Positions 5,948 through 11,588 of a stretch of DNA of 64,000 nt are shown in pieces. Under the pieces are notes generated by a model. That model searched no databases. It saw only the letters and a program-made list of their open reading frames with translations, and was not told the DNA's origin. Position numbers and translations under genes: made by a program. Origin of the DNA: Dehalococcoidia bacterium. Its GTDB lineage: Bacteria > Chloroflexota > Dehalococcoidia > Lucifugimonadales > Lucifugimonadaceae. Numbering within the stretch: position 1 is the first letter of the stretch; each line of letters starts with the position of its first letter. Location: assembly GCA_022819585.1 (NCBI GenBank), contig JAJEGY010000035.1, positions 1-64,000 on the forward strand, given 5' to 3'.

Positions 5948-8900
5948 CTAAGTGGTGAAGCGGTACTGCTGCTGGGTCTCGTCTGGGACGTAGGGCGGTG
6001 TCATGCCGAAGAAGGACATTATTCGGTGTTTGAGCATGGCTCGGGATAGGCTTCGCCAAGCGTTGCCGAGGTTGGGTTCGGGGTTGTCTGCTGGTTCGTT
6101 TTGGTTGAGTTCAGGGTTTTCGGATTCGTCTGTGTCGGGAGGTTCTTCTATGGCGGCAACGGCTTCGGGTGCTGGTGGGCCGTAGATGGTTTTTTCGAAT
6201 GCGTTGATGATTGTTCGGGCGTCGGTGTAGCGTGCGGTCATTTCTCCGACTTGGTTGGTGAATTCTCGTGCGGATTCGTGGGACGGTCTACGGTAACCGA
6301 GGATGGTTGCGACGCGGAGGAACTGGGTGTATGCTCGGACGGCTTCGGGCTGTCCTCGGAGGTTCCATCGCCATGCTCCGATGGCGAGGATGATGAGGGC
6401 GATTGCCGACGCGGCGGATGCGGTGGGGATGACGGGGATGTCGATGAAGGGGTCGTCTTGTTGTCTTGCGGCTAAAGCGGCGGCACGGAATTGTGCCTCC
6501 ATCATGGCGATTTCGTCGAGGTCTTCTAAGTATTCGAGGTAGTCGGGGTCGAATTCGGCAGATGTGGGGAGTTCGGGCGGGATCTCGGTCGTCGGTGATG
6601 TGGGCACAACGACGTTTCTTGGGACGGCTGGTCTGTTGGGCGTGACTTCGATGTCGATCCATCCGTATGGCGGGGCGTAGATCTGCGTCCAACCGTGGCG
6701 GTTGCGGTCGCGGATGAGGAACTGTCCCTGGTCTGGGACGTATTCACCGGCGCTCCATCCTGCGATCATGCGTGCAGGGACTCCGACGGATCGGAGCATT
6801 ACGGTAGCGGCGGATCCGAAGTATTGGCTGTAGCCTTTGCGTTTGGAGGCGTCGCAGGTTGGGAATTCGCTGGGACAGGGCTCGTTGACGGTCTTGAAGA
6901 GGAAGTAGTGGATGCCGTCGTCACGGGGTCCGGGTCCTTCGATCTCGAGGGAGTAGATCTGGCCTTGTAGCCATTTCTTGATGGCCATGGTCTTTTCCCA
7001 CGGGGTTTCGGCGTTGGCGTTGTCGACGATCTGCTGAGAGATGGTGCGGACTTCTTCTGGGAGCTCGTCGGGTAGTTGGAGGTATCGGTCTGCGATCCAC
7101 TCGGGGTAGTTTTCTGTGGATTCTTCAAGTTCTGAGACTTCGGCGGTGGAGATGAAGGTGGTTACGGTGTAGCGCTGGTTGGGTTCAAGGACTTCGTCGA
7201 AGTTGACGGTGTTCTGTTCGGTGGGTCCGCGTCGGACGATGCGCATGAGGTTTGCGTTTGTGCCGTCGGGTTCGGAGAAGATTCGGTAGCTGAATGTTGT
7301 CCAGTCGATGCCGGAGCGTCGGAGGTCCATTGCATCGATGTCTTCGGCGGTGATGCGGAAGCGTGTCGTTTCAGGTCGGTTGGTGGATCCCAATGGGTCG
7401 AGATCGGTGATTGCGAGGGATTGGAGGTCTTCGGGTGTGAGGATGATTTCGAGGCGTCGTGGTCCATTGCCGTCGTTGCGTTCGGTCATTTCCCTTAGGA
7501 CGACGGCTGAGACTCGGATACCGACGGTAGTGGGGGTATTGATGGCACCGTTAAGCATCTGTGAGAGTGAGACATCAGAGATGGTGAAGGTCATATCGAC
7601 GAATTCGCCGGCGCTGTTGAGGTTGAACTCTTCGATGTAGCTTGCGGTGACGGTGTATGTGATCTGCTCTTCTGCGACATACGCAGGGTCGATGTTTGAC
7701 TGCATCTGCCGGATGACGGAGCTGACCTCGTCGAAGGTCATTGCGGGTTGGGTGTTCAAGGTGAAGGGAGGTCTGTCGTTTGCGGTATCTGGAGGCGAGT
7801 AGATGGGAGAATCAGTTGCCAGCTTCATGAGTCTTTCGCGGAGGAGGAAGGCGAAATCTCGGAGGTCTTCGGGGAGTTCGGCGAGTTTCGCGGGGCTGCC
7901 GGCGAGAGGGACGTCCCATGTGAGGGGTTCGAGGATTTCGACGTCGGCGGTGTAGTCGACGGCGTAGACGGCGCCTGCGGGTATAACGCGGTCGGTTCTG
8001 CCTAATGGTTCGACGGCGATGTCAAGGCGAACGCGTTCGTCGATGCCGTTTTCTGAAGGGTCGACTAGGAGTCTGGTGCCGCCGCTTGCCGGTAGGGCTA
8101 CGCTAGGCGCGGTAATCCAACCTTGGGAGGTGTAGGTCTGGTAGACGCGGGCCGGGTGGAGTTTGGCGTATCTGGTGCGTACCCACATGATGGGGTCGTC
8201 GGTAAGTTCGATGCCACCTTGGAACGGGAGGACGGAGTTGGGTGAGTAGAGGAGGTCGTCGTCGCCGCTGGGGACTCCTGCGAGGAGGCGTTCGGCGACG
8301 TCTCGGAACTGGGTGAAGGGATCGAGGAAGATGGTGTTCCACCTGACGCTGAGGGTTTCAGACCTTGGCACAAACATGGGCATCAAAGCGGCGACGACCA
8401 TGACGACCAATCCGAGAATGATTCCGTCTCGCGCGGCGATCCATCGTGCTTCACCGGGGAATGTGAGGCCGGATTTTCGCCACTGGTTTATGCGTCCTAC
8501 TGAGACGAGGTGAGCGAATAGTGCGACCGCGGCGAGCATGAATAGGTAGAAGGTCTGCTCGTGGAGTCCGATGCGGTGGCTGAGATTGGTTAGGAGGGCG
8601 GTGCCGAGGATGGCGGCTGGTATCCAGGGGCTGTTGAATCTGAAAGTGAGATCGGTGACGACGTATGCCATGATCCAAGTCGCGGTCATCATGATCAGTG
8701 CGAAGGGGATTTGGTCTCCGCTGACGCCGCCGTTTATGGCGATGTCGATCCAGATTCGGAATCGGTCCCAAGCGTCGTATGAGCGTGCGAATGCATTGGC
8801 GCCTTCGGCGTTTAGTGATGCTTGCCAGAAGACTATGAAGATGCCGGCGAGGAGGAAAACGGCGAGGTTAAGAGGTATGGATAATCTGAGGCTGCTGCCG

Positions 8901-9178
8901 CGTCCGGTGATTCTAAGGCGTTGCATGAAGAACGCAATAGCGGCGGCGATGAGAGCGGTTGGGACGATGTTTGGAAGTTCGCCCCAGTTTGCGAGTTGAA
9001 CAGACCATCCGACCATTGCGAGCATCCATGCGAGTAGGCCGAGTGCGATCCAGTCGCTGATGGGGATGTCGGTGAGGAATGCGCGTCGCATCAATCGGCG
9101 GCGCATGATACGTCGTGATCTTGCCGATCTTCTTGATCGGCCGAAGATGCTGCCGAGTTCTGCGGTTGCGGTGGTCAC
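5948..9178 (-). CDS. Transglutaminase-like membrane protein (TgpA/DUF3488 type) with Ser at the catalytic Cys position
   Basis: 1076-aa protein with several N-terminal membrane segments (roughly residues 30-270), a long periplasmic part, a transglutaminase-like core around 780-850, another membrane segment ('ASAASAIALIILAIGAWRW') and a C-terminal cytoplasmic DUF4129-like tail. The core reads 'RKGYSQYFGSAATVMLRSVGVPARMIAGW', where homologues have Cys at the position of Ser784 (codon AGC at 6827-6829). His828 is kept in 'HGWTQIY', and the usual DPTP is 'EVTP' with Glu844. The protease-like activity may therefore be lost or changed. It starts with GTG overlapping the DUF58 stop (GTGA), so the two are translationally coupled, and it belongs to the MoxR/DUF58/transglutaminase trio seen in many bacteria. 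Confidence 0.9.
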   Translation of the reverse strand: MTTATAELGSIFGRSRRSARSRRIMRRRLMRRAFLTDIPISDWIALGLLAWMLAMVGWSVQLANWGELPNIVPTALIAAAIAFFMQRLRITGRGSSLRLSIPLNLAVFLLAGIFIVFWQASLNAEGANAFARSYDAWDRFRIWIDIAINGGVSGDQIPFALIMMTATWIMAYVVTDLTFRFNSPWIPAAILGTALLTNLSHRIGLHEQTFYLFMLAAVALFAHLVSVGRINQWRKSGLTFPGEARWIAARDGIILGLVVMVVAALMPMFVPRSETLSVRWNTIFLDPFTQFRDVAERLLAGVPSGDDDLLYSPNSVLPFQGGIELTDDPIMWVRTRYAKLHPARVYQTYTSQGWITAPSVALPASGGTRLLVDPSENGIDERVRLDIAVEPLGRTDRVIPAGAVYAVDYTADVEILEPLTWDVPLAGSPAKLAELPEDLRDFAFLLRERLMKLATDSPIYSPPDTANDRPPFTLNTQPAMTFDEVSSVIRQMQSNIDPAYVAEEQITYTVTASYIEEFNLNSAGEFVDMTFTISDVSLSQMLNGAINTPTTVGIRVSAVVLREMTERNDGNGPRRLEIILTPEDLQSLAITDLDPLGSTNRPETTRFRITAEDIDAMDLRRSGIDWTTFSYRIFSEPDGTNANLMRIVRRGPTEQNTVNFDEVLEPNQRYTVTTFISTAEVSELEESTENYPEWIADRYLQLPDELPEEVRTISQQIVDNANAETPWEKTMAIKKWLQGQIYSLEIEGPGPRDDGIHYFLFKTVNEPCPSEFPTCDASKRKGYSQYFGSAATVMLRSVGVPARMIAGWSAGEYVPDQGQFLIRDRNRHGWTQIYAPPYGWIDIEVTPNRPAVPRNVVVPTSPTTEIPPELPTSAEFDPDYLEYLEDLDEIAMMEAQFRAAALAARQQDDPFIDIPVIPTASAASAIALIILAIGAWRWNLRGQPEAVRAYTQFLRVATILGYRRPSHESAREFTNQVGEMTARYTDARTIINAFEKTIYGPPAPEAVAAIEEPPDTDESENPELNQNEPADNPEPNLGNAWRSLSRAMLKHRIMSFFGMTPPYVPDETQQQYRFTT

Positions 9179-10554
9179 GAGACGGTAGGTGTAGGTTCGG
9201 TTGCCGCGGTTTCGGGTTCCGGGATGTTGCTGGAGTAGAGGGCGGAGATTCTGGCGGCTGCGGCATCGGCGTCGGCGGTTGTGCCTAGGGCGTCGGTGAT
9301 GTCGTCGCCGTGGTAGATGCGGTATGTGGTGATGCCGGCCATCGAGAGGCGGGGGAATACGGATGCGTTAGATTCGCCGCCGAAAGATTCGCGGTCTAGG
9401 ACGATGCAAATGACTTGTATGCCGCGTCGTCGTAGGACACCTAGGGCGTCGATCCAGTTTCCTTCGTCTGATGCGGTGATGACGACGACGGTGGAACTGA
9501 CGAAGAGTTCGCGGTCGAGGACGGCGAGTGTCTCCATGATTGGGACGTTACCGTCAGGTTTTGATCCGGCGATGTGTCGGAGGATGTTTTCGCGGTGTGA
9601 GCCGGTGTGATCGGGAGTGGCGAGGAGAGAGATGCTGCCGTGTGCGATGTATCCGACGTCAGTGAATGTTCGGGTGTATTTGTCGATGATGGAGGCGGCG
9701 ATGGTTGCGCCGTATTCGTCGGTGGAGTCCTTGCCTTCGCCGGCTTGGGCGTCGGCGTGTTGGTCGAAGATGACCCACATCTCGCCTGCTGAGCCTTGGT
9801 CGAACTGTTTGACCATTAGTTCGCCGGTACGGGCGGTGGTCAGCCAGTGGATTCGGCCGATGGGATCGCCGTCGGCGTATTCGCGGACGGATGCGACGTC
9901 GGTTGATAGGACGTTCATGCGCTGGCGTCGGGAGTGGCCGTCGGCGAGGAGGACGCGGGATACGGCGATGTCGGGGATGGGTAGGACGCGTGGATATACG
10001 AGGACTTTGTCTACGCCTTCGAATTCGATGTCGCGAGGAAAGAGGTTAAAGGGGTCGGAGGCTCGGATGACTAGAGGGCCGAGATCATATTCGCCGCGCT
10101 GGGTCAGGGCTGCTTCCATGTCGACGCGTTTGAATGTGACCATGAGGCCGAAGCTGGTGACTTCGCGGAACTCGACATCGGGGAGGGTTGTTTTGTCTTC
10201 GACTTCGACCCATGCTTTGGGAGCGCCGTTTGAGTTTTGGATGATGATGCGCTCGGTGAGTGTGTCGCCTACGGAGAAGGGGCCGGTTGGTCGGTTAACG
10301 CTGGCCCTCATGTTTACTGCGCCGACGCGGGACCAGACCCATGAGACGGCGATGAGGATGAGCAGCAGATACGCGAGGCGCATCGAGAGATCGAAACCGG
10401 TGGCTACGGTGTTGACGAGTTTGGCGGCGATCACGAAGATGATTGCCAGGAGCATGCGATGCCGGACCAGCGTGTCGAAAAGTCTCCGTAGCGGACTGCG
10501 GCCCTCGGATGGGCCTGCGATACCTCTTCCGATCTTTGGTAGTGTTCCTTGCAC
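9175..10554 (-). CDS. DUF58 domain-containing membrane protein
   Basis: 459 aa with two N-terminal membrane helices ('MLLAIIFVIAAKLVNTV', 'LAYLLLILIAVSWVW') and the DUF58 signature 'VREYADGDPIGRIHWLTTARTGELMVKQFD', followed by a von Willebrand A-like segment ('EMWVIFDQHAD'). Proteins of this family occur with MoxR ATPases and transglutaminase-like partners and are thought to be handled by the ATPase; the biochemical role is not established. It starts at GTG 10554, 35 bases after the MoxR stop, and its stop overlaps the next start. I see no strong ribosome site. Confidence 0.92.
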   Translation of the reverse strand: MQGTLPKIGRGIAGPSEGRSPLRRLFDTLVRHRMLLAIIFVIAAKLVNTVATGFDLSMRLAYLLLILIAVSWVWSRVGAVNMRASVNRPTGPFSVGDTLTERIIIQNSNGAPKAWVEVEDKTTLPDVEFREVTSFGLMVTFKRVDMEAALTQRGEYDLGPLVIRASDPFNLFPRDIEFEGVDKVLVYPRVLPIPDIAVSRVLLADGHSRRQRMNVLSTDVASVREYADGDPIGRIHWLTTARTGELMVKQFDQGSAGEMWVIFDQHADAQAGEGKDSTDEYGATIAASIIDKYTRTFTDVGYIAHGSISLLATPDHTGSHRENILRHIAGSKPDGNVPIMETLAVLDRELFVSSTVVVITASDEGNWIDALGVLRRRGIQVICIVLDRESFGGESNASVFPRLSMAGITTYRIYHGDDITDALGTTADADAAAARISALYSSNIPEPETAATEPTPTVS

Positions 10555-10589: not shown

Positions 10590-11588
10590 TCAGGCGGTGA
10601 CGGGTGCTGTTATTCTTCCGCCGCTGGCTCCGGGCACGTTGACGTTCTCCAATGCTTCGGAGACGATGGTGCTCTGGTTTACGCCTCTCATGCGTGCGGA
10701 CGGTGAGAGGAGAACGCGGTGTGACATTACGGGTACGGCGATGGCCTTTACGTCGTCTGGGATGACGTAGTCACGTCCTTGGAGCATGGCGAATGCTTTG
10801 GCACCTTTCATGAGGTTGATGCTGGCGCGTGGTGAGACGCCGAGGGTGGTGTCGGGGTGGCTTCGAGTGGCGTTGGCGATGTCGACGATGTATTGCTTGA
10901 TGAGTTCGTCGATGTAGATGGAGTCGGTGTATTGCTGCAGGGCGATGATGTCTGATGGGGTGCTGCTCGATTGAAGGAGGTCGATGGGGTCGGTTGCTTC
11001 TCTGCCATCCATGATCGAGACTTCTTCGCTTGGTTCGGGGTATCCGAGGGAGATGCGCATGAAGAAGCGATCGAGTTGGGCTTCGGGGAGGGGGAAGGTG
11101 CCTTCGTATTCGATGGGGTTCTGAGTAGCGATGACCATGAAGGGGCTGGGGAGGGTGTGCGTGACGCCTTCGACGGTCACTTGCTGCTCGCCCATTGCTT
11201 CGAGAAGGGCTGATTGTGTCTTGGGTGTGGCTCGGTTGATTTCGTCGGCTAGGACGACCTGGGCCATGATAGGTCCGGGGCGGTACTCGAACTGCCCGAT
11301 CTGCTGGTTGTAAACGGACGCGCCGGTGACGTCGCTGGGCAGGAGGTCTGGTGTGAATTGGACGCGCTTGAAGTCACAGCCTGTGGTGATGGCGATGGAG
11401 CGTGCGAGCATGGTCTTGCCGACGCCGGGGACGTCTTCGACGAGGATGTGTCCTCGGCTGAGCAGTGCGACCATGGCAAGACGGATGGCGGGGTCTTTGC
11501 CGATGATGACTTGTCCGACGTTTTCGACGATGCGGTCGACAGCCTGGGCGTGACCGTTGCTTGAGGTGTGTTCGGGGGCTGTGGTCAA
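10590..11588 (-). CDS. MoxR-family AAA+ ATPase
   Basis: 332-aa cytoplasmic AAA+ ATPase. Walker A is 'DVPGVGKT' (residues 52-59), Walker B 'VVLADEINRA' with Asp115-Glu116, and sensor 1 'VIATQNP'; the C-terminal lid includes 'LGVSPRASINLMKGAKAFA'. MoxR proteins act as chaperone-like remodelers of the von Willebrand A/DUF58 proteins encoded beside them. The start is TTG at 11588, supported by AAGGA eight bases upstream. It is first in the MoxR-DUF58-transglutaminase operon and faces the methyltransferase gene across a 198-base divergent gap. Confidence 0.95.
   Translation of the reverse strand: MTTAPEHTSSNGHAQAVDRIVENVGQVIIGKDPAIRLAMVALLSRGHILVEDVPGVGKTMLARSIAITTGCDFKRVQFTPDLLPSDVTGASVYNQQIGQFEYRPGPIMAQVVLADEINRATPKTQSALLEAMGEQQVTVEGVTHTLPSPFMVIATQNPIEYEGTFPLPEAQLDRFFMRISLGYPEPSEEVSIMDGREATDPIDLLQSSSTPSDIIALQQYTDSIYIDELIKQYIVDIANATRSHPDTTLGVSPRASINLMKGAKAFAMLQGRDYVIPDDVKAIAVPVMSHRVLLSPSARMRGVNQSTIVSEALENVNVPGASGGRITAPVTA

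Follow-up and report, generated by a model that had tools for sequence, protein, structure and literature searches.

The window analyzed here, a stretch of 64,000 nucleotides from a sponge-associated Chloroflexota bacterium, carries on its minus strand the gene order MoxR, DUF58 and a transglutaminase (TGase)-like gene. The latter (5948..9178, minus strand) is an ORF with a GTG start that encodes 1076 amino acids, and the segment RKGYSQYFGSAATVMLRSVGVPAR was found within it. It overlaps by 4 bases the gene for the DUF58 protein (9175..10554, minus strand; PF01882), while the MoxR AAA+ ATPase (10590..11588, minus strand; PF07726, PF17863) is encoded at the head of the group. The three genes are presumably co-transcribed, and the two partners are intact and on the same strand as the TGase-like gene, as the preliminary description of this DNA had it. 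We take MoxR and DUF58 to be the gene families of the three-gene unit of TgpA, and a unit of this composition is present at the window locus. TgpA (PA2873) of Pseudomonas aeruginosa is encoded in a three-gene transcription unit (PMC3507681). The rest of the window genome contains a single other Transglut_core protein, which is short and of the Cys type, and therefore no close Cys-type paralogue covers for the window protein.

This gene encodes a membrane protein that resembles TgpA and has a TGase fold. Its Transglut_core domain (PF01841; residues 712-844, 6647..7045, on the minus strand like all features given below) was matched by Pfam at 50.1 bits (cut-off 23), as was the same domain in 40 out of 40 homologues. 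The AlphaFold model of the domain reached a mean pLDDT of 91, and its top Foldseek match was TgpA (6g4h/6g49, E 1e-8), followed by 3isr and, more weakly, by the animal transglutaminases TG2, TG3, and FXIII; model and structure matches both identify the TGase fold. In the full-length model, about eight N-terminal helices are followed by a beta-rich part, an extra segment, the TGase domain, a membrane helix and a DUF4129-like end, and the N-terminal membrane part, TGase domain and C-terminal membrane helix together make up the TgpA architecture. The eight predicted helices of the N-terminal membrane part (residues 40-269, 8372..9061) are TgpA_N-like, and the TgpA_N profile itself (PF11992) matched nine of the 40 homologues, the window protein not among them. 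The C-terminal membrane helix spans residues 916-940 (6359..6433) in the model, and the DUF4129-like domain behind it (residues 949-1008, 6155..6334) scored 22.1 bits with PF13559, just under the cut-off of 24.8; this profile matched 36 of the 40 homologues. The extra segment of about 185 residues (about 455-640, 7259..7816), which follows the beta-rich part and precedes the TGase domain, was recognized in the model and as a gap in the matches of other family members. Among the members of the family it is restricted to the window genus, its pLDDT is mostly low, and its dN is faster than that of the TGase core. Repeat-like motifs (TISDVSLSQML, TPEDLQSLAI, and TAEDIDAMDL) were seen in this segment. 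TgpA, the best match in both sequence and fold, shares the N-terminal membrane helices and the extracytoplasmic TGase-fold domain; unlike the window protein, it has five N-terminal helices before the domain instead of about eight, and it has neither the extra segment nor the DUF4129-like end.

A further difference from TgpA concerns the active site, which is Cys-His-Asp with measured transglutaminase activity in TgpA and Ser-His-Glu in the window protein. An alignment with the periplasmic domain of TgpA (6g49, E 3.3e-9) placed Ser784 (codon AGC, 6827..6829) on the Cys of GFCAHY, His828 (6695..6697) on the His, and Glu844 (6647..6649) on the Asp. In the model, the core helix (784-797) begins with Ser784, His828 opens a strand and Glu844 directly follows the next strand, as in the Cys enzymes. 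The preliminary description had reported a Ser in the place of the family Cys and a retained His, and both readings agree with the numbering of the ORF, the codon, and the Pfam and TgpA alignments. It had also singled out Glu844 in place of Asp; the residue is indeed Glu, but it is no oddity since Glu is the norm at the acid position in the phylum (48 of 52 Cys-type relatives). The His and the acidic residue of Transglut_core are therefore present, but the core helix does not begin with the catalytic Cys, and because this defining Cys was tested for and is absent, the window protein, although it has the Transglut_core fold and the TgpA architecture, is not a canonical transglutaminase. Tyr742 (6953..6955) is a candidate oxyanion-hole residue, presumably comparable to Trp241 of human TG2; Tyr occupies this position in 52/52 Cys proteins, in 91/95 Ser proteins, where it is thus not fully invariant, and in 10/28 pseudoenzymes.

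We then examined how widely the Ser is distributed. A search over 149 related genomes gave 96 with a homologue, and searches of the class and phylum together with 120 genome stretches brought the collection to 176 distinct proteins. Ser-His-Glu was found in 95 of these 176 proteins, which came from some 25 families sampled within the order and outside it, in a sample that was not random, as the query was Ser-rich and the stretches were picked for diversity. The Cys types comprised 48 Cys-His-Glu, four Cys-His-Asp and one Cys-His-Asn, and the remaining 28 proteins had a broken triad, with the forms Phe-(Tyr/Phe/Trp)-(Asn/Ser), Ala-His-Asn, Ala-Leu-Asn, and Ala-Phe-Ser as well as Pro or Val forms; three of the 28 had Ser without the His and the acid. 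All seven genomes of the window genus carry KGYSQY (some of these assemblies are named SAR202 or Dehalococcoidia), Ser was present in all readable homologues of the window family, and in nearly all homologues of the order GYS precedes an Asp or Glu. The preliminary description had proposed asking whether the Ser is fixed in a clade, and it is: in the genus, in the family, and in most of the order. Within the order, Cys at this site was limited to two families of the final set and one broken copy (L067), the gene of which is split by an in-frame TAA. Proteins from outside the class had Cys in 24 out of 24 cases read. One Ser gene of the window-family type (L159) came from a genome that belongs to a different family of the class and whose own relatives have Phe-Trp-Asn, and may reflect either gene transfer or mis-binning.

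A quick LG+G4 tree of 129 proteins, built with the triad columns excluded, placed the window protein within an all-Ser clade of 36 rows (SH-aLRT 99). The Phe/Asn pseudoenzymes formed a separate group of 23 (SH-aLRT 98), which included the three triad-less Ser proteins; these use TCN Ser codons, one step from the TTY codons of Phe. Among rows keeping the His and the acid, at least five changes between Cys and Ser were counted on this tree, in which the root and the direction of change are not fixed, and a single clade for all Ser rows was rejected (AU test, p 0.013). An independent-pairs test of nucleophile loss against triad loss gave two agreeing and no opposing pairs, a small number of pairs. 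These sequence comparisons show that Ser has long been fixed in a large clade.

The triad columns themselves were strikingly constant. Ser784, His828, and Glu844 each had no change in 62 Ser rows, for a median core column of 14 changes, while the same columns in the 28 pseudoenzyme rows had 8, 8, and 6 changes for a median of 8. Likewise, the His and the Glu were each kept in 95/95 Ser proteins, compared with four His and no acid among the 28 pseudoenzymes. Six other positions (R796, P801, R803, G807, W830, and G839) were invariant in both Ser and pseudoenzyme rows and are presumably structural. At least five switches of the Ser codon between the AGY and TCN sets occurred on well-supported branches, with Ser kept each time, which indicates that Ser itself is selected, and the absence of triad changes despite these switches indicates that selection holds Ser, His, and Glu together. 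In terms of sequence evolution, the whole triad is thus shown to be under purifying selection in the Ser lineage. The TGase core had a dN/dS of 0.03-0.13 within the genus, below or similar to other parts of the protein. The triad loss beyond the nucleophile that defines a pseudo-transglutaminase was not observed, His and Glu being invariant; the lineage instead shows the pattern of Ser-type papain-like proteins, in which a conserved Ser replaces the Cys and the other two residues are kept.

Judging from this pattern, we consider it slightly more probable than its opposite that Ser784-His828-Glu844 forms a working catalytic site that replaces Cys-His-Asp/Glu in the extracytoplasmic TGase-fold domain. 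The wider reading that the whole clade consists of Transglut_core enzymes that swapped their Cys for Ser, and thus of serine transglutaminases or serine amidases of natural origin, has in our opinion a nearly even chance of being correct. At such a site, Ser784 would occupy the nucleophile's usual place, where the core helix begins, and His828 would activate its hydroxyl; acyl transfer or hydrolysis would follow. The activity would be that of an amidase, esterase or transamidase and the target an envelope protein or peptide, and MoxR and DUF58 would partner or regulate the membrane complex from the cytoplasm. Papain-like enzymes can retain partial activity after a Cys-to-Ser change (PMC10318531).

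The preliminary description had left the choice between a Ser-nucleophile variant and a non-enzymatic scaffold. The triad is invariant here and eroded in sister lineages with the same operon. A working site would lead one to expect this and an inert scaffold would not, and the way in which Ser, His, and Glu have stayed invariant together therefore favors the functional-site half of that proposal over the inert scaffold. This invariance fits catalysis and ligand binding alike and does not separate them. It is accordingly quite possible that the pocket is non-catalytic, with Ser, His, and Glu binding a peptide or glycan and the domain sensing or scaffolding for MoxR-DUF58. A Cys-to-Ser change usually reduces the activity of an enzyme strongly, and there is a precedent for such a binding role in SERA5 of Plasmodium falciparum, a papain-like domain of a different family with Ser in the Cys position, for which no detectable activity, a Ser-to-Ala change without phenotype and a non-enzymatic role have been reported (PMC4671257). 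The operon also speaks for this alternative, as sister lineages with the same operon lost the triad outright, implying that the module has a non-catalytic use. DUF58 was upstream in all 52 Ser loci with enough flank and MoxR in 47 of them, and both genes accompanied 20/20 pseudoenzyme loci and 11/14 Cys loci. The module is thus maintained irrespective of which residues occupy the site, which suggests that its role is partly independent of catalysis. However, a binding pocket is not expected to need all three triad residues at zero changes across such divergence. Moreover, none of the 176 proteins combined Ala at the nucleophile position with an intact His and Glu; the Ala lineage had its Glu changed to Asn.

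The sister pseudo-transglutaminases are of interest in themselves. A TgpA-like clade of the class (L169-L204, for example L172, L177, L185, and L188) has its triad erased to Phe, Tyr/Phe/Trp, and Asn/Ser, and its members are well conserved and still within the MoxR-DUF58 operon. A separate Ala-His-Asn lineage (L115, L163, L167, and L173) is less close to the Phe clade than to relatives of the Cys type.

Fully eroded triads thus occur in the same class, and the Ser could in principle be a neutral or slightly harmful step in an early decay towards a pseudoenzyme. We regard this as very unlikely, since the Ser state is common to most of the order, His and Glu are unchanged in 95 proteins, dN/dS is low and the tree keeps the pseudoenzyme clades apart; the earlier impression that the locus does not look decayed is in line with a Ser state shared across the order and with the unchanged triad. 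The preliminary description had also named the case in which another Cys, for example in PCPSEFPTC, takes the catalytic position. Two core Cys, Cys768 and Cys775 (6854..6877), are indeed conserved in 40/40 window-family proteins just ahead of the site, but sequence comparison places them in a family-specific loop insert directly before Gly-Tyr-Ser, away from the start of the helix. The same Ser-His-Glu is found in the Ser relatives outside the window family, 54 of 55 of which have no core Cys (the remaining one is most likely L159). It is simpler to read the pair as a disulfide of an extracytoplasmic loop, possibly forming a lid before the active site, and a role of Cys768 or Cys775 as substitute nucleophile in the window family is extremely unlikely. 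A sequencing or assembly error at the single codon is scarcely conceivable, as AGC was found in each of the seven separately assembled genus genomes and Ser in all readable family homologues.

With regard to known systems, several papain-like families (menin, APC5867, DUF2145, DUF2272, and DUF3750) have a conserved Ser for Cys beside the other active-site residues and have been proposed to be active, without proof (PMC10318531). They differ from the window protein in that they are other families of the superfamily, none of them Transglut_core. EPB42 and FBXO21 have a Transglut_core-like fold in which catalysis was lost (PMC10318531), whereas the window lineage keeps the His and the acid invariant; these two proteins are better compared with the Phe/Asn clade of the same class. 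We found no Ser-type member of Transglut_core reported in the literature, and likewise nothing useful on SAR202 transglutaminases. While Ser-type papain-like families are already known, a Ser type within Transglut_core is new as far as our literature search shows.

Replacing Cys by Ser is the classic laboratory way of killing a Cys enzyme. A natural and deeply conserved Ser lineage, flanked on the tree by Cys relatives and by true pseudoenzymes with the same operon, offers a way to test what a papain-like site needs in order to work with Ser, and the same lineages allow the widespread and poorly understood MoxR-DUF58-TGase module to be tested with and without catalysis. If the window protein is a serine enzyme, it would belong to a family in which Cys and Ser were interchanged several times while sister lineages in the same operon turned into pseudoenzymes.

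We also considered an excess of charge at the site, an idea taken from previous work (PMC10318531). The Ser domains had a net charge of -9.2 and the Cys domains of -5.0, but the upstream part was equally shifted and the difference between core and upstream charge did not distinguish Ser from Cys proteins (p 0.30). The acidity of the Ser domains is therefore a general acidity of these proteins and not a property of the site, and the idea was rejected. Finally, the gene was missing from many small genomes of the family (0.7-1.5 Mb; G010-G012, G014, G020-G022, and similar) and thus appears dispensable in streamlined lineages.
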